Under the pieces are notes generated by a model that saw only the letters and a program-made list of their open reading frames with translations, did not search any database and was not told where the DNA came from. Below are positions 31,700-62,595 of a DNA stretch of 64,000 bases, one piece after another. The stretch spans positions 5,952,001-6,016,000 of the forward strand of contig CP087563.1 in assembly GCA_020974905.1 (NCBI GenBank). The letters are read 5' to 3'. This DNA comes from Planctomycetes bacterium syqfu. Lineage in GTDB: Bacteria > Planctomycetota > Phycisphaerae > Phycisphaerales > Phycisphaeraceae. A program made the position numbers and the translations under genes. Numbering within the stretch: the first letter of the stretch is position 1; each line of letters begins with the position of its first letter.

Positions 31700-32185
31700 T
31701 CGTGTGCATCTGTGTCCATTATGATTGACAATTGCCGCCGATGGTTCTGTTGCCATTGGCGGTTCTTTTTGTACTCCGAAAGACGTGATCGCTGTTCACG
31801 AGGTTTGATGACAAGAAACCTGCTGTAAAAATCTTTTCCCACAAGTTATCAACAATTCATGGTTAAGCACTCTCTGACGCACTTTGGCCCTGTATCGGGC
31901 CGACTCTGTCAGCAACGCGTTAAACTCTTATTGGACCGCAATTTTTGCGCTCGCCAGTCATTCCTGCGCAGTTATCGGATGAACCCTCAACACCATTTTC
32001 TGGGCTAAGCATCAGAAAATTAAGGAACTTGGGGCAATTTGTCGATATGTCAAAACGTCAAAGCGTAAAAGTGTCAAAGGCCCTATCGGACTTTCGTCAA
32101 CGTCCGGATAACGCAACACGGCTTTGAGGAATGCACAAAAGCCTTCCTCAGCCCAATGACACCAGGCAGGAAAGGTTTTGAGTAG
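31700..32185. other. 486-base gap without a gene
   Basis: No convincing coding frame. It holds one near-consensus DnaA box (TTATCAACA, 31846-31854) after TTTTCCCACA, a short hairpin (GGCCC/GGGCC near 31890) and a degenerate array TGTCAAAACGTCAAAGCGTA running on to GTGTCAAAGG (32047-32079). It separates cassette 3 from the MerR-type and flagellar genes. Confidence 0.6.
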
Positions 32186-35192: not shown

Positions 35193-35648
35193 ATGACCAG
35201 CACATCTCAAGCATTTGTCGAATTGCTCATTCAGCAGAAAGAGCTTTATTTAAAGCTCAAAATGCTCAGTGACAAGCAACGCGAACTGGTGCAGCAGCAG
35301 GACGCTGTTCAGCTTCTTGGTGTACTCGGTGCCCGGAAAATTCTCGTTGAACAACTCACGCAACTGGGCCAGCAAATCGCACCCATCCGCGAGCAGTGGC
35401 AGTCACTCAAAGACGACATGCAATCCGAACAGCGTCAGCAAATCAACCAACTCATCGACGAAACACAGGAACTGCTCTCAGGCATCATTGCAGCTGACGA
35501 ACAGGACCGCCAGGACATGGCCGCAGCACGTGATGAGAAGGGGGCTGAACTCAAACAGTTCACTCAAAATGCTTCAGCTCGCAATGCCTACACCGCATCG
35601 GCCAATGCCGGCAACAACTATGCTCGCTTTGCCTACAAACAAGGATAA
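35193..35648 (+). CDS. FlgN-like flagellar export chaperone
   Basis: 151 residues, almost entirely helical and Gln-rich, with heptad patterning (LIQQKELYLKLKMLSDKQRE and later LIDETQELLSGIIAADEQDR). Length and profile fit FlgN, the chaperone for hook-filament junction proteins. AAGGTCAAGG precedes the ATG. The kinase gene starts two bases after the stop. The call rests on fold and place rather than on strong motifs. Confidence 0.68.
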   Translation: MTSTSQAFVELLIQQKELYLKLKMLSDKQRELVQQQDAVQLLGVLGARKILVEQLTQLGQQIAPIREQWQSLKDDMQSEQRQQINQLIDETQELLSGIIAADEQDRQDMAAARDEKGAELKQFTQNASARNAYTASANAGNNYARFAYKQG

Positions 35649-35650
35649 AC

Positions 35651-36547
35651 GTGACCACGCAACCGCCGTCCAACATGCCCACCAGTGAAGACCTGGCTCA
35701 AATCATCCAGGCTTACAACACCGTTACCGAGAGACTGCAAAAGACCCATGAGCAGCTTTCCTCGGAAGTGGTGCGCCTGCGCAAGGAACTGGCATCAACC
35801 AATGCTCAACTTCAACGCTCCAAGCGATTGGCAGCACTCGGTGAAATGGCAGCAGGTATCGCCCATGAAATCCGCAATCCGTTAGCAGCGATCCATCTCT
35901 ATGCCGGCATGCTCCAGGATGATCTCAAACGCATGAAGCCGCAACAGGACATCGCCACCAAGATCGCCTCGGCCGTTCGCGGCCTTGAAGGCATCGTCAC
36001 CGATGTACTCACCTTCTCCCGTGAGATGCAGCCGGACATGCGTCCATGCAATGTGCTTGAACTCGTCGCCCGTGCGGTGGACATGCAAAAACCCGCTATT
36101 TTACAGCATGATATCCTTGTCGACGATGAAGCCATCGACGATGAGCTTTGTCTGCATGTCGATCCTGAGCTCATGCACCGTGCACTGACCAATGTCATCC
36201 GTAATGCCGTCGAAGCGATGGCCGGTGTCGAAGATGCAACCCTGACCATTTCCGCCAGGCGTGATGATGATGAACAGGTGATCATCCTGAGCATCCGCGA
36301 CAACGGAGCAGGCATTGACGGCGATGATATTGATCGCATCTTCAATCCCTTTTTTACCACCCGTAACACCGGCACCGGACTTGGCCTGGCCATCGTCCAT
36401 CGCATTGTCGATGCTCATGCCGGTTCAATTCTCGTACACAATGACAACGGCGCGGTCTTTGATTTTGTCCTGCCCATCAAGGCTCAAACATCAAGTGACC
36501 GCCAACCCGATTCAGAGGCAGCAGTTTCCCAGGGAGTTCTTTCATGA
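35651..36547 (+). CDS. sensor histidine kinase, FlrB/FleS type
   Basis: Soluble kinase of 298 residues without membrane segment. A coiled region (residues 15-58) leads into the H-box MAAGIAHEIRNPLAAI with phospho-acceptor His72. The N box is NVIRNAVEAM, G1 is DNGAGI, and G2 is TGLGLAIVHRI. Start is GTG, two bases after the flgN-like stop. Its stop overlaps the start of the response regulator by four bases (ATGA), so they are a pair. Its position in a flagellar operon matches FlrB/FleS, which phosphorylate the sigma-54 activator of class III genes. Confidence 0.93.
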   Translation: MTTQPPSNMPTSEDLAQIIQAYNTVTERLQKTHEQLSSEVVRLRKELASTNAQLQRSKRLAALGEMAAGIAHEIRNPLAAIHLYAGMLQDDLKRMKPQQDIATKIASAVRGLEGIVTDVLTFSREMQPDMRPCNVLELVARAVDMQKPAILQHDILVDDEAIDDELCLHVDPELMHRALTNVIRNAVEAMAGVEDATLTISARRDDDEQVIILSIRDNGAGIDGDDIDRIFNPFFTTRNTGTGLGLAIVHRIVDAHAGSILVHNDNGAVFDFVLPIKAQTSSDRQPDSEAAVSQGVLS

Positions 36548-37950
36548 ATGGCAAAGTACTCGTCGTCGATGACAAACAAATCATGCGCGACAGCGTCGGC
36601 GCAACCCTTCAACGTGCAGGCATGCAGATCGTCTCGGCCTCCGATGGTCAGGCGGCACTCACCGCCATCGCCCGCCATCGCCCCGATGCGGTGATCTCCG
36701 ACTTGAAGATGCCCGAACTCGATGGCCTGGGTTTACTCATGAAACTCAAGGAAGTCGATGACCAATTGCCCCTGGTGTTGATGACCGCCTATGGCACGGT
36801 GGATGTCGCGGTTGCCGCTATGAAACAAGGCGCTTTTGACTTTGTGCAAAAGCCCTTTGAAGGTGACCAACTGGTGCTGACCATGAAACGCGCCATCGAA
36901 CACCGCCGATTGATTCAGGAAAATGCCGCACTCAAATCCGGCGTCTCGCCCAGCGATGTCATGCCCATGCTTATCGGTCAGTCCCAGGTCATGCGTAAGC
37001 TCGCAACGCAGATCAAGCAGATCGCTGCCTCCAACGGCACGGTACTCGTCCACGGTGAATCGGGTGTCGGTAAGGAAGTCATGGCACGCACCATTCATGC
37101 CTGCTCGCAACGCCGCGACAAGGTCATGCTTTGCGTCAACTGTGCAGCACTGTCTTCAAGCCTGCTCGAATCTGAACTCTTCGGTCACGAAAAGGGCTCG
37201 TTCACCGGCGCTGAACAAATGCGTAAAGGTCGCTTTGAACTCTCCGACGGTGGCACGCTGCTTCTGGACGAAATCTCCGAAATCAGTCCGCAACTCCAGG
37301 CCAAGTTGCTTCGCGTGTTGCAGGAAAACCAGTTTGAACGTGTCGGCTCGTCATTGACCATGCAGGTGGACTCGCGCGTGATCGCAACGACCAACCGTGA
37401 TCTGACGGACTGTGTTGCGGATGGTTCTTTCCGCCAGGACCTTTACTATCGACTGAATGTTCTGCCGATCCATGTCCCGCCGCTACGTGATCGTTTGGAT
37501 GACGTGCCGGACTTGTCGAATCACTTTTTGACGACGCTGGCCATGCGTGAAGGTCGCGACCAGAAGCACTTTGACGATCATGCGATGGAACTGCTGATGC
37601 AGTATCAGTGGCCGGGCAATGTTCGTGAGCTTCAGAACATCTGCGAACGCGCGGTGGTCCTCTCGCGTGGTCTGACGATCACCGCCAACGTGATCCGCCC
37701 GTGGTTGACCGATTCGCATGAACAGCAGGCGATGTCGCAGGCTACCCAACCCCAGCAGGCAACCGCCAAGCCCCAGGCCTATGCTCCCAAGACACTTGAA
37801 GAGATCGAACGCGAAGAGATTCTCAAAGCGCTGGAACACAACCGTGGCAATCGGCAACGCACTGCCCGGAGTCTGGGCATCGGTGTTCGCACGCTGGGTC
37901 TGAAACTCAAGAAGTGGAAGGAAAGCAATCTCGTGGCACAGACGGTCTGA
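36544..37950 (+). CDS. sigma-54-dependent response regulator, FlrC/FleR type
   Basis: 468 residues in three domains. Receiver 1-115 with phospho-Asp53 (VISDLKMPELDG). AAA+ domain about 140-370 with Walker A GESGVGKE, the sigma-54 contact loop GSFTGA (usual form GAFTGA) and Walker B GGTLLLDEI. A Fis-type HTH at the C-terminus (EREEILKALEHNRGNRQRTA). A strong -24/-12 promoter and two inverted repeats directly follow the gene, in front of flgB, so it very probably activates the rod-basal body operon. Confidence 0.95.
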   Translation: MNGKVLVVDDKQIMRDSVGATLQRAGMQIVSASDGQAALTAIARHRPDAVISDLKMPELDGLGLLMKLKEVDDQLPLVLMTAYGTVDVAVAAMKQGAFDFVQKPFEGDQLVLTMKRAIEHRRLIQENAALKSGVSPSDVMPMLIGQSQVMRKLATQIKQIAASNGTVLVHGESGVGKEVMARTIHACSQRRDKVMLCVNCAALSSSLLESELFGHEKGSFTGAEQMRKGRFELSDGGTLLLDEISEISPQLQAKLLRVLQENQFERVGSSLTMQVDSRVIATTNRDLTDCVADGSFRQDLYYRLNVLPIHVPPLRDRLDDVPDLSNHFLTTLAMREGRDQKHFDDHAMELLMQYQWPGNVRELQNICERAVVLSRGLTITANVIRPWLTDSHEQQAMSQATQPQQATAKPQAYAPKTLEEIEREEILKALEHNRGNRQRTARSLGIGVRTLGLKLKKWKESNLVAQTV

Positions 37951-37969
37951 AACCCTGGTTTGGCATGAG

Positions 37970-38008
37970 GCGCATTTTTTGCGCGATACCCAAGCGCACA
38001 TCTTGCGC
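37970..38008. promoter_or_regulatory. two enhancer-like inverted repeats GCGCA-N5-TGCGC
   Basis: Perfect copies at 37970-37984 and 37994-38008, centres 24 bases apart, plus a half-site TGCGC at 38011-38015. They lie 63-101 bases before the -24 element, the usual range for activator sites of sigma-54 promoters, and directly after the activator gene. Confidence 0.75.
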
Positions 38009-38070
38009 GGTGCGCTAAAAACAGTGTTCAACCAACCGCGATTTTGTACCTGAAACACGGGAAAACACAT

Positions 38071-38086
38071 TGGCACGCGACTTGCT
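38071..38086 (+). promoter_or_regulatory. sigma-54 promoter of flgB operon
   Basis: TGGCACG-CGAC-TTGCT: the -24 GG (38072-38073) and -12 GC (38084-38085) have the required ten bases between them, and the flanks match the consensus. The flgB ATG is 35 bases downstream. Confidence 0.9.
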
Positions 38087-38120
38087 AATGTCTGGTGAGA
38101 CGAAAAACGGAATTTGAGAT

Positions 38121-38573
38121 ATGGCAAGCTCAGGAACTTTTATCAAAGGCATGTTGGACGGCGGGGCACTCCCAGTGCTCGAACGCTTCACCCAATTTAC
38201 TGCCGAACGACATAAAGTTCTCACGCACAACATTGCCAACTTCTCAACCCCGTTTTACAAGCCGCGTGATTTGTCGGTTGAAAGTTTTCAGGACACCCTG
38301 GCCGATGCCGTGCAAAAGCGACGTCGCCAGGTCAATCCTACCGGCGGACCCCTGCGACCGGGTAATACTCAGCAGGTGACCTTCGGCAAGGACGGCATGA
38401 TGGTGCAGGCCGACCCGACGCATGAGAACATCCTGTTTCACGATCAAAACAATCGTGACCTGGAACGCACCATGCAGAAACTCGCGGAGAACACGCTGTC
38501 GCATAACATGGGCATTGAACTGCTTAAAAACCAGTTTGATCTGCTCCGAACCGCGATTCGCGAACAACCGTAA
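38121..38573 (+). CDS. flgB: flagellar basal-body rod protein FlgB
   Basis: Proximal rod subunit exported by the flagellar type III system. 150 residues. The N-terminal rod motif ERHKVLTHNIANFSTPFYKP (about 30-49) and the C-terminal heptad helix SHNMGIELLKNQFDLLRTAI are typical. First gene after the sigma-54 promoter, so first in the flgB-fliE run. Confidence 0.93.
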   Translation: MASSGTFIKGMLDGGALPVLERFTQFTAERHKVLTHNIANFSTPFYKPRDLSVESFQDTLADAVQKRRRQVNPTGGPLRPGNTQQVTFGKDGMMVQADPTHENILFHDQNNRDLERTMQKLAENTLSHNMGIELLKNQFDLLRTAIREQP

Positions 38574-38594
38574 GGTTTGTAAGGCAAGTTGAAA

Positions 38595-38617
38595 ATAGCT
38601 GCGACACCACGTGTCGC
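38595..38617. repeat. ATAGCT + 7-3-7 palindrome before flgC
   Basis: GCGACAC-CAC-GTGTCGC with the ATAGCT edge, identical to the right unit at 22766-22788. It ends 15 bases before the flgC start, so the hairpin lies in the mRNA leader. Confidence 0.82.
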
Positions 38618-38631
38618 TGAAGGAACAAAAC

Positions 38632-39036
38632 ATGTTTGGATCACTGAACATCTCGACATCCGGACTTGTCGCCCAGCGGACGCGCATGGAAACCATTGCT
38701 GCGAACCTGGCCAACAAGAACACCGTCGAAGATGCCAACGGCAATTATGCACCGTTTCGTCGGCGCATTCCGATCTTTGCCACCGGTGATCCGCATAGCG
38801 GTTCTGCCAATGGTGTTCATGTCGATGAGATCATGCTCGACCCCGCACCGTTTCGCAAAGTGTTGGACCCGACGCACCCGTTTGCAGATAAAGACGGTTA
38901 CGTGCAGATGCCCAACATTGACACCACGACGGAAATGATCAACGCGATCGAAGCCACCCGTGCTTACGAAGCCAACATCACTGCCGCCGAGGCCACCAAG
39001 TCCATGATTCAATCCAGCCTGAGATTGCTGGCTTGA
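38632..39036 (+). CDS. flgC: flagellar basal-body rod protein FlgC
   Basis: Proximal rod subunit, 134 residues from the ATG at 38632, which has AAGGAAC seven bases upstream. N-terminal MFGSLNISTSGLVAQRTRME and ETIAANLANKNTVEDANG; C-terminal EMINAIEATRAYEANITAAE, the classic FlgC ending. The open frame begins earlier at 38611 but that part lies in the repeat. Confidence 0.95.
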   Translation: MFGSLNISTSGLVAQRTRMETIAANLANKNTVEDANGNYAPFRRRIPIFATGDPHSGSANGVHVDEIMLDPAPFRKVLDPTHPFADKDGYVQMPNIDTTTEMINAIEATRAYEANITAAEATKSMIQSSLRLLA

Positions 39037-39060
39037 TCTTGATAGAAGGAAGGTGTCACC

Positions 39061-39378
39061 ATGAGTGATCCCTTAGGGTTAATTGGAAACAGCAGCGTCG
39101 GCGGAGCCGGCGGGCTGCCGTCAACACCCAAGCTTCCGGGGGCTGGGCAACAGGATGGGCCCAGTTTTAAAGATGTGCTGATGCAGAACATCGAGCAGGT
39201 CAATCGTCTCCAGCAGGATGCGGAGATGGCCATTGAAGACCTTGTCACAGGACGTCGGGATGACGTGGACCAGGTCATGATGGCCAAGCAGAAGTCTGAC
39301 CTTGCTTTCCAGATGCTGCTGCAGGTGCGCAACAAAATGGTCGACGCGTATGAGGAAATCAAGCAGATGCGCGTGTGA
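39061..39378 (+). CDS. fliE: flagellar hook-basal body complex protein FliE
   Basis: Links the MS ring to the rod. 105 residues. The C-terminal two thirds (SFKDVLMQNIEQVNRLQQDA, VMMAKQKSDLAFQMLLQVRN and KMVDAYEEIKQMRV) are typical. The N-terminal Gly/Pro linker contains LPGAGQ, encoded by a copy of the CCCCGGAAGT-type repeat in reverse (39131-39147). Confidence 0.94.
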   Translation: MSDPLGLIGNSSVGGAGGLPSTPKLPGAGQQDGPSFKDVLMQNIEQVNRLQQDAEMAIEDLVTGRRDDVDQVMMAKQKSDLAFQMLLQVRNKMVDAYEEIKQMRV

Positions 39379-39386
39379 TGAGGAAA

Positions 39387-39496
39387 GGGACTAGCGACTA
39401 GCCACTAGGGACTAGGGAAAAGACATCGAAATACAACGGTTTTTCATGCCTTTTCTGCCTTGCCCCTAGTCCCTAGTCGCTCGTCCCTAGTCCCTG
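39387..39496. repeat. inverted pair of degenerate heptad arrays between fliE and fliF
   Basis: Left arm 39387-39417 (units GGGACTA, GCGACTA, GCCACTA), right arm 39463-39496 its inverse (CCCTAGT, CGCTCGT). The 45-base spacer carries ordinary sequence. The arms can pair to a long imperfect hairpin. Confidence 0.82.
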
Positions 39497-39607
39497 ATTC
39501 AGAAAATTGGAGATTTTCTGATCCCACGACCGATAACACAGTATCGCAGGAGGCGATAACCGGAATCACGGTTGGAGATGTGATCCCACACGGCATGGAG
39601 GCCGACA

Positions 39608-41245
39608 ATGGAATTCCTCAGACGGCACTGGCTGCAGGCCCGCGCATTGTTCGATCAACTGACCCCCAGTCAGAAGTGGTTGATGCTTGCGCTGATTGTC
39701 TGCCTCGGGTTGTCGGGGCTGCTTATTCTGGCTTATGTCCCGAGCACGGACCTGATTCCCATCACCTCATTCGCAGGCAAGAATCAGGCCGAAGTTGTCG
39801 CGCGCCTCGAAGCGGAGAATATCGACGTCACCGCCAAGGCAGGACAAATCTATGTCCCAGCCAACAAGCGTTTTGAAGCCATCTCCATTCTCCAATCCTC
39901 CGAATTGCTCACCGAAGATACCTCTGTTGCCTTTGATGATCTGATCAAGAATCACTCGCCCTGGATGAGTGACGAACAGAACAAACAGGCTTACATGCTC
40001 GCGCTGCGTAAGACACTGTCGATGATCGCATCCAAGATGAAAGGCGTTGAACACGCTGATGTTTTCATTGCCAAGCCTGACGATATTGGTTTTGGCACCA
40101 CCTACGTCAAACCCACCGCATCGGTCAACGTGAAAATGGCGCGCCGCAAGCCGTTGGATAAACACATGGCCCAGGCGATTGCGGGTCTCGTTGCCGGTGC
40201 CATTGCCGAACTTGAACCGGCTGATGTCACTGTCATCGACTCCAGCTACGGTCGCCAATTCTCCGGTATTGATGATGGCGTCGTCGCTCCGTCGGAAACA
40301 TTTGAATTTCTCAAAGCCCAGGAAGAACATTACCGAACCAAGATCATCGATGCCCTAGGTTACATCCCTGGCGTGCGTGTTGCGGTCAACGTCAAGAACG
40401 ACCCCATGCTTGCCAAGGACACCGAGACCTATGCTTATGAAAAGTCCGAACGCCTCACCAGTCAGGAATCTGAAGACATCGAACGCAAGAGTGTTTCGGA
40501 TCGTGGTGAACCGGGTGTCCGTCCCAACACCGGCTTGAGCATTGCCGGGGCACGTCAGCAGGGGACTCAGGAAACCATCGCCAAGGCACGCAGCGAATTC
40601 GGTGGCCCGGTCATGGTCGAACGTTCCAAATCACACACGGTGGGCAACACCGTCATGCAGGTCTCCGTCACCGTCAACATCCCACGGACCTACTTCGTCG
40701 GACGCATCAAAATGCGTGGCGGCGCTGCCGGTGATGCCGAACCATCCGAAGAAGATATCCAGGCAGAGGTGGCCACGGAACTACCGCGCATTGAAGAGCA
40801 GGTCGCGCCGCTAATTTCGGCTGCGGATAAAGGTGTCGTCAAGGCACACATGATCCCCGATCCCGAAGCCTTGCTTGCCTTCCGCGAAAGCTCCAAGGAA
40901 CTCTCAGGTTTTGCAGCCATGATCAAGCAACCCTGGTTCCAGCCAGCGGTACTCAGTGGTCTGACCTTCCTGGCCATCATGCTCATGTTCGGCATGGTCC
41001 GCAAGGCACTGCGTCAGCCCAAACTCCCGACTGTCGAGGAACTGGCTGGTGTCCCGCCATCGCTACCCTCTGAGGATGACCTGCTCGGTGAAGTCGAAGA
41101 AGCTGAGACCGGCATGGAAGGTGTCGAGGTCGACGAAGACGAAATCCAGATGCGCAAGCTCGCTGAACAGATCAGTGAAATGGTTCGTGCCAATCCGTCC
41201 GAAGCCGCTGCCTTGTTCAACCGCTGGGTGGAGTCAGATGATTAA
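39608..41245 (+). CDS. fliF: flagellar MS-ring protein FliF
   Basis: Membrane ring on which the motor is built. 545 residues. N-terminal membrane helix LMLALIVCLGLSGLLILAYV (about 25-44), ring-building motifs (YMLALRKTLSMIASKMKGVE, VNVKMARRKPLDKHMAQAIA), a periplasmic collar, a second membrane helix (FQPAVLSGLTFLAIMLMFGM, about 445-464) and an acidic C-terminus for FliG binding (MRKLAEQISEMVRANPSEAA). GGAGG six bases before the ATG. Confidence 0.96.
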   Translation: MEFLRRHWLQARALFDQLTPSQKWLMLALIVCLGLSGLLILAYVPSTDLIPITSFAGKNQAEVVARLEAENIDVTAKAGQIYVPANKRFEAISILQSSELLTEDTSVAFDDLIKNHSPWMSDEQNKQAYMLALRKTLSMIASKMKGVEHADVFIAKPDDIGFGTTYVKPTASVNVKMARRKPLDKHMAQAIAGLVAGAIAELEPADVTVIDSSYGRQFSGIDDGVVAPSETFEFLKAQEEHYRTKIIDALGYIPGVRVAVNVKNDPMLAKDTETYAYEKSERLTSQESEDIERKSVSDRGEPGVRPNTGLSIAGARQQGTQETIAKARSEFGGPVMVERSKSHTVGNTVMQVSVTVNIPRTYFVGRIKMRGGAAGDAEPSEEDIQAEVATELPRIEEQVAPLISAADKGVVKAHMIPDPEALLAFRESSKELSGFAAMIKQPWFQPAVLSGLTFLAIMLMFGMVRKALRQPKLPTVEELAGVPPSLPSEDDLLGEVEEAETGMEGVEVDEDEIQMRKLAEQISEMVRANPSEAAALFNRWVESDD

Positions 41246-60257: not shown

Positions 60258-61696
60258 ATAACATCAAGACATTCACCGCTTCAAACATGGCCCAAGCCAT
60301 GGCCATGGTCAAGGCACACATGGGTGACGATGCCATGATTCTGCACACACGCTCCTTCAAGCAGGGCGGATTTTTTGGCTTTGGCGCTCAAACGGTCATT
60401 GAGGTGACCGCCACCACACCCGACGAAAAACCGCGCCGGAGAAAATCCGCACGCCGCGAGCGTCCGCCACTGAACACGCAATCCCGCCCGCCATTGGTCG
60501 GACATTCCGGGGCGTCCGGGGGTTCCGGGGGGGGCAACATGATGCCCACTGCAGGGGACCTGATCCGTCGGACCTATGCCGCAGCACTCAGTGAGCAGCA
60601 GCAAAACGCGCCGTCACAAAATCCCCAGTCATATAACGCCCAGTCCACCTACAACAATCCGCACCAGCCGTTGAACCCGCAGCAGAATGTCATCACGCCA
60701 CCGCCGGTGCATCCCGCTTCGCATCGTCCCAATCCGGCTCAGCCGCAGTATCTCCCGGCATCCAACAAGGCTTCAAATAACACGGAGTCTGCCAAGCAGT
60801 TGGCTGAGGAAATGCAGGCCGTCAAACGCATGGTCGAACGACTTATGCAGCAGCAGGCTTCGCGTGGTGATAACAAACCCTCGGACTTGCCCGACCAGTT
60901 GTTTGATCAGTACATGAATCTGATCAAGCAGGAAGTCGCCCAGGAAATCGCCCAGGACATTGTCACGCAGGTCTCCGAACGCCTGACCGAAAAAGAACTG
61001 GAAAATCCAACCAAAGTCCGCAAGGCCATCCGCGATTGCATCTGCGATTTCATCCCCGCACACCACGAACAATGGGACCTGGAAAAAACCGAAGACGGTC
61101 GCCCACGCACCATTGCCCTCATCGGCCCCACCGGTGTCGGCAAGACCACCACGGTTGCCAAACTCGCTGCAACCTTCAAACTCAAACAGGCCAAGCATGT
61201 CGGCTTGATCACACTCGATACCTACCGTATCGCAGCAGTCGATCAACTACGCACCTACGCAGACATCATCGGCATCCCGCTGCATGTCTGTAACACCGCT
61301 GCTGAACTTGATGCAGCTGTCGGTAAATGTGCAGGCTGTGATGTCGTGCTCATCGACACCGCCGGCCGATCCCAACGCGATGATCCCAAGCTTGATCAAC
61401 TCAAGAAATTCATCGACACCGCCAACCCGCACGAAGTCCACCTCGTACTCTCTTCAACCTGCACGCAGAAGGTGATGCTCGAAGCCGCCAAACGCTTCTC
61501 TGAAGTCCGCACCGATCGCATCATCTTCACCAAACTCGATGAAGCCGTCTCCTACGGCGTGTTGCTGAATGTCAGCAAACAGGTCGGCAAGGAACTGAGC
61601 TACCTCACCACCGGGCAGGAAGTCCCGCACCAGATCGAACCCACCGCGTCGCTGCGACTGGCGGATCTGGTCATTGATGGGGAGTTGGCTTCATGA
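60254..61696 (+). CDS. flhF: flagellar placement GTPase FlhF
   Basis: SRP-like GTPase that sets where flagella form. 480 residues. N-terminal B domain (KTFTASNMAQAMAMVKAHMG, HTRSFKQGGFFGFG), a long Gln/Pro/Asn-rich linker (about 75-175), then the NG domain: GPTGVGKTTTVAKLA, DTYRIAAVDQLRTYADI, DTAGRSQRDDPKLDQL and FTKLDEAVSYG. The linker segment SGASGGSGGG is coded by CCGGGG units (60505-60535). Start is TTG overlapping the flhA stop. Confidence 0.95.
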   Translation: MNNIKTFTASNMAQAMAMVKAHMGDDAMILHTRSFKQGGFFGFGAQTVIEVTATTPDEKPRRRKSARRERPPLNTQSRPPLVGHSGASGGSGGGNMMPTAGDLIRRTYAAALSEQQQNAPSQNPQSYNAQSTYNNPHQPLNPQQNVITPPPVHPASHRPNPAQPQYLPASNKASNNTESAKQLAEEMQAVKRMVERLMQQQASRGDNKPSDLPDQLFDQYMNLIKQEVAQEIAQDIVTQVSERLTEKELENPTKVRKAIRDCICDFIPAHHEQWDLEKTEDGRPRTIALIGPTGVGKTTTVAKLAATFKLKQAKHVGLITLDTYRIAAVDQLRTYADIIGIPLHVCNTAAELDAAVGKCAGCDVVLIDTAGRSQRDDPKLDQLKKFIDTANPHEVHLVLSSTCTQKVMLEAAKRFSEVRTDRIIFTKLDEAVSYGVLLNVSKQVGKELSYLTTGQEVPHQIEPTASLRLADLVIDGELAS

Positions 61697-62595
61697 TGAC
61701 TGACCAGGCCCAGGCATTACGACAATTGGTGGCACAAAACCAGCAAGTCACCCAACCCGCATCGCAGCAGCAACCCGTTGCGGCTAAGCGCCAGCGTCAC
61801 GCGCGCATCGTCGCTGTCACCAGTGGCAAAGGCGGCGTCGGTAAATCCAACGTCTCCGTCAACCTTGCCATCCAACTCACGCAGGCCGGCCGTCGTGTTG
61901 CACTACTCGATGCTGACCTGGGCACCGCCAATGCCGACGTGCTCTGCAATGTGCCCGTTGGTTCAACGCTCGCCCAAGTCGTCAACGGCCAGTACACCCT
62001 CAAGGAAGTCATGGTCAAAACACCCGGCGGATTCTATCTCGTCCCCGGCGCTTCAGGCTTGGCCAATATCGCGGACATGTCAGCTGATGCGCGCAAGCGA
62101 CTCGTTGATCAGATCTACGAACTTGAAGCCATGGTCGATGTCATCATCATCGACACCGGTGCAGGTGTTTCGTCGAACGTGCTTGGCTTTGCGTTAAGTG
62201 CGGATCAGATTCTTGTGGTGACCACGCCCGAGCCCACTGCCATGACCGACGCCTATGCTGTGATCAAATCACTGGTTTCCGAGCGTCAGGATTTGGACGT
62301 ACGCCTGCTGGTGAACATGGCCAGCGATGTCACCGAAGGTCGTGAGATTTACCATCGACTCAACGCAGTCTGTCGGCAGTTTCTCTCGATCAACATCCTC
62401 TATGCCGGTCACGTGATTTTCGACCCCGCGGTGCGAAAAGCTGTTCGCGCACAGGAACCGTTTTTACTGGCATCCCCCAAGTCCCAGGCCACGCAATGCA
62501 TTCGCAGCCTAGCTACCCGCGTGGACCGACTCGCGCAGATTCCCAGTGGTCCAGGCCTCATGGGTCGCATGACCCAATGGTTCAAACGCAAGTAA
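61693..62595 (+). CDS. flhG: flagellar number regulator FlhG (MinD-like ATPase)
   Basis: Limits flagellar number with FlhF. 300 residues. An N-terminal Gln-rich stretch (possible FlhF-activating motif), then the deviant Walker A VTSGKGGVGKSNVSVNLA, DADLGTANADVLCNV, and a C-terminal amphipathic end (GLMGRMTQWFKRK) that fits membrane binding. ATGA overlap with flhF. Confidence 0.94.
   Translation: MMTDQAQALRQLVAQNQQVTQPASQQQPVAAKRQRHARIVAVTSGKGGVGKSNVSVNLAIQLTQAGRRVALLDADLGTANADVLCNVPVGSTLAQVVNGQYTLKEVMVKTPGGFYLVPGASGLANIADMSADARKRLVDQIYELEAMVDVIIIDTGAGVSSNVLGFALSADQILVVTTPEPTAMTDAYAVIKSLVSERQDLDVRLLVNMASDVTEGREIYHRLNAVCRQFLSINILYAGHVIFDPAVRKAVRAQEPFLLASPKSQATQCIRSLATRVDRLAQIPSGPGLMGRMTQWFKRK

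Follow-up and report, generated by a model that had tools for sequence, protein, structure and literature searches.

A predicted kinase, activator and sigma-54 switch at flagellar genes of the Phycisphaeraceae

In the planctomycete DNA discussed here, the gap between the gene of an NtrC-type activator and the rod gene flgB holds two exact GCGCA-N5-TGCGC palindromes and one canonical -24/-12 box. Judged from sequence, it is highly probable that kinase, activator, palindromes and sigma-54 promoters form a circuit, which would drive the flgB cluster, the flgF-flgL genes and the fliW-csrA-flagellin genes. The sequences supply the parts of this circuit, their conservation, the frozen codons of a promoter box inside flgL and the twin spacing of the palindromes. 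Since the switch is common to most relatives in the family Phycisphaeraceae and recurs at two more flagellar groups, it looks like a control point of flagellum building. For this planctomycete class, a site, a set of promoters and a regulator of flagellar control can be predicted.

The region upstream of flgB and its regulators

The first-pass annotation of the window (the whole 64-kb stretch of DNA analysed) had described two perfect repeats 24 bases apart and a sigma-54 promoter with exact spacing, located after the activator gene and before flgB. All of this is confirmed. The activator gene ends with its stop at 37950, and flgB starts with an ATG at 38121. The predicted enhancer sites, found by pattern search and conservation and given without strand, are GCGCATTTTTTGCGC (37970-37984) and GCGCACATCTTGCGC (37994-38008), with 24 bp from start to start and 9 bp separating them. 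The predicted promoter, TGGCACGCGACTTGCT, lies at 38071-38086 on the plus strand, and was identified by pattern match and conservation. The consensus of sigma-54 promoters is TGGCAC-N5-TTGC, in which 10 bp separate the GG at -24 from the GC at -12. In TGGCACGCGACTTGCT, the GG is found at 38072-38073 and the GC at 38084-38085, with the same 10 bp distance and conservation in relatives. Measured from the -12 element, the centres of the two palindromes lie 107 and 83 bp further upstream.

Within the window, the two palindromes are the only exact ones (mean of 0.20 in dinucleotide shuffles, of which 2 in 100 reached two), and TGGCACGCGACTTGCT is the sole sigma-54 box with zero mismatches. Looser boxes are no commoner than chance, since 10 with at most two mismatches were observed and 7.4 expected. 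Abundance in the genome was rejected as evidence. The 7.38-Mb genome, a single contig, has 6 copies of the palindrome versus 7 of a reversed-pattern control, so that abundance alone proves nothing, and such counts are mixed across 31 genomes (this one and 30 relatives). Sigma-54 boxes across the genome were likewise rejected as stand-alone evidence, with seven TGGCAC-N5-TTGCT matches, some of them intragenic. The flgB sites are significant because of their position and conservation.

Two further palindrome-like sites deserve mention. A possible weaker site, CCGCAATTTTTGCGC (31936-31950, no strand given), matches at 9 of 10 positions, has another TGCGC half 19 bp further, and lies upstream of a block of MerR-like, TPR, FlgN-like, kinase and activator genes; no sigma-54 box was listed near it. 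The identical 15 bases occur in two of the 16 relatives scanned (L015 and L016) and are absent from the other 14. From its position, the site could serve autoregulation of the kinase and activator block. Elsewhere in the genome (4916617; L002, 1501-1515), the near-ideal palindrome GCGCAAGAATTGCGC is flanked on one side by a polysaccharide export gene (Poly_export, SLBB) and on the other by an ORF that by eye looks dehydrogenase-like, and the gap that holds it has no sigma-54 box of 9 bits or more.

The kinase, the activator and flgB are carried by one strand. The sensor histidine kinase (35651-36547, plus strand) has HisKA and HATPase_c domains according to Pfam, which found no sensor domain in it. 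It starts directly after a FlgN-like ORF (35193-35648), so named by eye and with no Pfam match. The activator (36544-37950, plus strand) combines a receiver, a sigma-54 AAA+ domain and a Fis-type HTH. By eye, it has the Walker A motif GESGVGKE, the GAFTGA-type loop GSFTGA and the HTH helix GIGVRTLGLKLKKWK, and is in all these respects an NtrC-type enhancer-binding protein. With a kinase and an NtrC-type regulator adjacent to each other and beside flagellar genes, and with boxes before rod operons, the locus has the layout of a flagellar two-component system.

The activator had been called FlrC-type. This description suits its apparent way of working, but orthology to FlrC does not follow from the matches. 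In NCBIfam, AtoC, NtrC and ZraR score best, all below cut-off, and no family is over its cut-off among the best 25 of 118 matched. The FlbD model scores 361 of 750 bits and the FlgR model 294 of 750. FlrC AAA+ structures are among 25 structure matches, but are not top-ranked. As no listed NCBIfam family reaches its cut-off, filing the protein as a FlrC orthologue is not supported. Phycisphaeraceae and Phycisphaerales MAGs are the closest named relatives; the activator of one of them (L015) has 100% identity over 468 residues. Family activators are mostly 60-78% identical to that of the window.

Conservation in the family at flgB, flgF and fliW

The first-pass annotation had made its proposal depend on an rpoN gene and on conservation of the sites before related flgB genes, and both are found. 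The genome has one complete rpoN gene, with activator-interacting, core-binding and DNA-binding domains all present. Among the 31 family genomes (30 and the own one), rpoN was detected in 28, in 27 of them over cut-off, and was not found in G007, G013 and G035, which are 88, 90 and 51% complete. G007 has a good sigma-54 box at flgB even though its rpoN was not found.

Conservation of the palindrome was assessed in two sets, which share species and hence are not independent. In a scan of genome contigs, 80 relatives of the activator were fetched, and in 18 cases flgB could be detected after the activator gene. All of these (18/18) carry one or more exact palindromes between the two genes; these loci have 25 exact palindromes, 24 in or touching the gap and one elsewhere. 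In the second set, the 31 family genomes, the activator was found at E 1e-100 or better in 29, and the gap was readable in 28. An exact palindrome is present in the gap of 26 of these 28 genomes, for a total of 37 in 5,254 bp, versus 0.014 expected from 500 shuffles. The exceptions are G008, which has the flgF site, and G006, where the palindrome is absent at both flgB and flgF, yet the HTH is nearly unchanged.

Promoter boxes are conserved as well. The strict pattern TGGYAY-N5-TTGC occurs in 11/28 flgB gaps (0.02 expected from shuffles), and a relaxed pattern, chosen after the sites had been seen, in 25/28 (0.5 in shuffles). The distance from palindrome centre to -12 element has a median of 85 bp (n=24, range 63-152). 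In the box scan, the palindrome itself came out as the top-scoring "box" in L024, L027, L029 and L045. For L024, the other box entered the matrix of 13 boxes, from which L027, L028, L029, L030 and L045 were omitted. In three loci from Phycisphaerales or Phycisphaerae (L028, L030, L045), the flgB box reads TGGCAC-N5-TTGAT, with TTTGAT as its end, rather than TTGCT. It is possible, from these sequences, that TTGAT is a lineage variant of the -12 element.

Palindromes that often lie within tens of bases behind a stop codon, be it that of the activator or of flgL, might be RNA hairpins or intrinsic terminators that end these genes, rather than protein binding sites. They could indeed fold into a 5-bp GC stem closed by a 5-nt loop. 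However, the 10 nt that follow a site contain no T run longer than 2 in 60/63 flgB and flgF sites, and none longer than 4 in any of them, and a terminator scan found none between activator and flgB. Second sites with one or two mismatches have 0 changes at paired positions, against 29 unpaired ones. What is fixed is the letters of the stem and the length of the spacer, not the pairing, and the sites come in phased pairs. The hairpin explanation fails because of the T runs and the lack of compensation, and we consider it very improbable.

Binding sites for a protein, which we prefer, would fit with the pairing. A second copy about two helical turns from the first is usual in the family. In 17/26 flgF loci, the exact palindrome is accompanied, at a distance of precisely 20 bp, by another site that matches at 8 or more of 10 positions; given a background of 0.0012 per position, chance would yield about 0.03 for any single offset. 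For flgB, the best partner by the same threshold is 18-24 bp off in 17/26 (about 1 expected, background 0.0028) and 31-34 bp off in 3/26, while six loci have none. The twin-site counts exclude the row of G006, where the palindrome is inside the activator gene. The spacing of 24 bp in the window is at the edge of the flgB range, and the spacing in relatives makes the duplication seen there the rule. We infer that the spacings, about two and three helical turns, fit dimers that sit side by side on the same face of the helix.

The search for sites elsewhere, recommended in the first-pass annotation, succeeded in part. It turned up sites at flgF/flgG and a further node at flgL/fliW, but, at the thresholds of the scan, none just upstream of the four flagellin genes outside the flgF-to-flagellin cluster. 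One of the six palindromes of the genome, at 6231236, lies upstream of an 85-aa ORF, followed by flgF-flgG-flgA-flgH and, further on, flgK-flgL (flgI to flgL named by eye). The sigma-54 box TGGTACAGCACTTGCC lies between this palindrome and the 85-aa ORF with the flgF genes. No Pfam or NCBIfam family matches the ORF itself (L134, 3475-3732), which is placed between the promoter of the flgF operon and flgF; by position, it is possibly FlgM or a chaperone.

FlgG proper was found in 28/31 family genomes (two others have only weaker paralogues, one has nothing), and 2.5-2.7 kb upstream of each of the 28 genes were scanned. An exact palindrome is present 426-657 bp upstream of flgF in 26/28, and none elsewhere in the stretches scanned. 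It is absent in G045 and G006, both of which keep the sigma-54 box. The strict TGGYAY-N5-TTGC pattern occurs at most 700 bp upstream of flgF in 25/28, versus 0.06 in shuffles. The palindrome centre is a median of 175 bp from the -12 element (n=25, range 26-337).

Boxes and palindromes as chance or inherited background of a GC-rich lineage would be in line with the count of 6 versus 7 in the single genome. This explanation is already refuted by the conservation tests, and retains hardly any probability: the sites are enriched by position (26/28 and 26/28 promoters, with shuffle expectations below 0.1), and they are conserved despite activators of mostly 60-78% identity.

The most unusual part of the circuit is the frozen sigma-54 box inside flgL with its predicted downstream enhancer. 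FliW was found in 29/31 family genomes, and the end of flgL is present in 28 (the contig of G044 is cut). An intragenic sigma-54 box in flgL is found in 28/28 of these genomes. In 27 of them it reads TGGCAT-N5-TTGCT and lies 90 codons before the stop; G035 has GGGCATCATATTTGCA. When 188 aligned flgL codons are ranked by how little their third base varies, the first five are exactly the box codons outside the spacer, with T in 27/28, C in 28, C in 27, a free spacer codon, then T in 28 and T in 27, in segments with a GC3 of 0.47-0.91. The box was located by a pattern that fixes three of these five bases and limits a fourth, and no readable locus was lost by it. Two of these five codons differ between genomes in the encoded amino acid (R, S, L, F in one and L, F, V, I in the other), yet their third base is kept.

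Right behind the flgL stop, the palindrome is exact in 24/28. For 21 of these 24, the distance from the -12 element down to the palindrome centre is 269-271 bp. Of the two top-scoring boxes of each locus in the 500 bp before fliW, none above 8.2 bits lies between palindrome and fliW. The own genome has two sites there, each with only 8/10 matches, CGGCAGAAATTGCGC and GCGCAAAATTTGCAG; as read in this genome, flgL is followed by fliW, an 89-aa ORF that by eye is CsrA-like, and a flagellin gene. The simplest reading of these sequences is that the flgL box is a hidden promoter of fliW-csrA-flagellin, with the enhancer downstream of it.

Further palindromes were inspected in two genomes. G012 has 11, two of which are the flgB and flgF sites. 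Four more were inspected: one before fliW (conserved), one inside an flhG-like ORF, one inside another ORF and one between ORFs. Apart from the fliW site, these extras have no listed box of 13 bits or more. In G016, a negative genome with no FlgG, FliW or activator match, 4 of 23 palindromes were inspected, two inside ORFs and two between ORFs, and none has a box of 13 bits or more.

Activators and sites across the phylum

Outside the family, the layout of the genes is more stable than the sites. FlgC was found in 78 of 149 sampled Planctomycetota genomes. Of these, 76 do not belong to the family, and the loci of 60 were fetched. In 39 of the 60 loci, three of them on cut contigs, an activator-like protein is encoded no further than 2.6 kb upstream of flgC, and two more have weaker matches; flgB itself was detected in 31 of the 39. 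An exact palindrome was found in 1/60 (G023), together with the helix RTLGLKLRKWK. Related sites, picked by eye and without shuffle control, accompany RTLR or RTLI helices, namely CGGCAGAAAGTGCCG (G171), CGGCAGAAAATGCCT (G096) and AGGCAAATGTTGCCT (G118, G135). G100, with the helix RTLGM, has CGGCA-N5-TGCGC and CGGCA-N5-TGCCT. In the majority of the 39 loci, no GCA-N5-TGC site can be recognised in the gap. In three genomes of the same order (G019, G024, G028; loci L261, L266, L267), the kinase-activator-flgB layout is kept, with the box TGGCCCGGCGTTTGCG or TGGCCCGGTGTTTGCG. Here, an RTLG activator stands beside flgB, the gaps are very short, and they contain no palindrome.

The helix is RTLG in the GCGCA genomes for which the recognition helix was read; the count leaves out L021, L022, L023, L025 and L026, where the pattern caught another stretch. 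We hypothesize, from few independent changes, that the residue after RTL is linked to the outer letters of the half site. The contrast of RTLG with RTLR or RTLI would point to a candidate specificity position in the HTH, and the data suggest that across the phylum the gene layout is often kept while the letters of the site change.

These observations also bear on the notion that the sigma-54 promoters are real, but that the palindromes are used by another enhancer-binding protein or a repressor, with kinase and activator as mere neighbours. Adjacency is no proof of binding, and stretches related to the activator are numerous, with 18-96 first-look candidates per genome, not all of which are activators. 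On the other hand, an activator resembling this one is found upstream of flgB/flgC in 39/60 loci outside the family. The letters of the site differ along with the HTH helix where a site is readable, RTLG going with GCGCA, and two 5-bp halves with a 5-bp spacer are the architecture bound by NtrC-type dimers. Use of the palindromes by a different protein is therefore improbable, and the adjacent activator is our preferred candidate.

The proposed circuit and known systems

As to phosphorylation, the binding of the activator, looping, the lengths of the operons and the signal, we infer the following. A signal would reach the kinase, which would phosphorylate the NtrC-type activator. Activator dimers would bind the GCGCA-N5-TGCGC palindromes, normally paired about two helical turns apart. 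The AAA+ ring would then assemble and loop onto the sigma-54 RNA polymerase at the TGGCAC-N5-TTGC promoter, and the polymerase would start transcription of the flgB cluster. In this family, the same activator would switch on two or more additional units. For flgF-flgG-flgA-flgH-flgI-...-flgL, the site would act on a promoter that lies about 175 bp further downstream; for fliW-csrA-flagellin, the promoter would be the one in flgL, with the enhancer about 270 bp downstream of it.

The flgB cluster is on the plus strand throughout. It begins with flgB (38121-38573; TIGR01396 over cut-off), flgC (38635-39036; Flg_bb_rod and Flg_bbr_C), fliE (39061-39378; TIGR00205 over cut-off) and fliF for the MS ring (39608-41245; TIGR00206 at E 2.8e-15, below cut-off). 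The remaining genes occupy 41381-62595. Over cut-off are fliG, fliI/yscN, a member of the flgE/F/G subfamily (flgE), fliP, flhB, flhA and flhF; fliH, fliJ, fliK, flgD, motA, motB, fliL, fliN, fliO and fliR were named by eye, and FlhG (61693-62595) matches MinD-type models only, below cut-off. The genes for MS ring, rotor and export are part of this single cluster and lie after flgB on its strand. A simple scan of 37900-39700, which takes in the 229-bp gap before fliF, detected no sigma-70-type promoter match. This gap, and one of 534 bp before motA (in which ORFs below 130 aa were not listed), could hide promoters.

Five Flagellin_N genes are present in the genome, one of them in the flgF-to-flagellin cluster. 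The four outlying ones (two in L135, one each in L136 and L137) have no site or box just upstream at the thresholds of the scan. The genome also encodes two FliA/WhiG-type sigma factors over cut-off, one at 6224524-6225192, about 6 kb from the flgF promoter, and one at 1179937-1180608; a simple pattern detected no sigma-28 promoters in the five flagellin upstream stretches.

A bolder proposal is that a single kinase-activator-sigma-54 switch fires nearly the whole flagellum in the Phycisphaeraceae, through the flgB unit with its genes for MS ring, C ring and export apparatus, the flgF-flgL unit and the fliW-csrA-flagellin unit. We put it forward tentatively, and think it somewhat more apt to be wrong than right. 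If true, it would mean a flagellar hierarchy without the usual separately controlled early tier, and an enhancer conserved downstream of its promoter at a nearly fixed distance. The circuit also raises the question of how a checkpoint kinase could work if the parts of the structure that it would sense came from a promoter under its own control.

Sigma-54 activators in Pirellula were reportedly the subject of an in-silico study in 2004. The statement in the first-pass annotation that such control is little described in planctomycetes is now partly overtaken, as a genome-wide prediction of sigma-54 regulons places motility genes under this control in the class Planctomycetia (PMC12316311, available text). 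The main text of that paper, as available, contains neither "flgB" nor "FlrC", and names Phycisphaerae once, for chaperones. In the open literature on planctomycetes and Phycisphaerae, a scope that most subscription papers fall outside, no paper on such a circuit was found; PMC2754498 and PMC10945688, in their available parts, do not treat it.

The predicted enhancer resembles that of NtrC in its two inverted 5-bp half sites, the 5-bp spacer, the pairing and the predicted activation from a distance. The NtrC enhancer is of the type TGCACC-N5-GGTGCA, whereas here the half site is GCGCA and the targets are flagellar. The flgL box can be compared with the conserved intragenic sigma-54 promoters of Escherichia coli (PMC4591121, in the text available), with which it shares the location in a coding sequence, the sense orientation, the long leader and the conservation across species. 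In contrast to those promoters, the flgL case is flagellar, has its predicted enhancer downstream at a near-fixed distance, and has third codon positions that are frozen in 28 genomes belonging to a single family.

Among flagellar systems, the closest parallels are FlrBC of Vibrio cholerae, FleSR of Pseudomonas and FlgSR of Campylobacter, which also pair a kinase with an NtrC-type regulator (PMC7064773, available sections). Shared features are the sigma-54 promoters before rod operons and the presence of FlhF and, by position, FlhG. Vibrio FlrC sites are typically downstream of the transcription start and still act as enhancers (PMC6504787, available sections), as is predicted here at flgL/fliW. 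According to the available sections of both papers (PMC7064773, PMC6504787), the FlrBC, FleSR and FlgSR programs make the MS-ring, rotor and export genes first (in Vibrio, part of export), and their two-component systems need these before the rod genes fire. In contrast, fliF, fliG, fliP, flhB and flhA are here located behind the predicted sigma-54 promoter of flgB, and flhF follows as well. With early genes behind the flgB promoter, either internal promoters exist, or the signal differs from that of the known systems.
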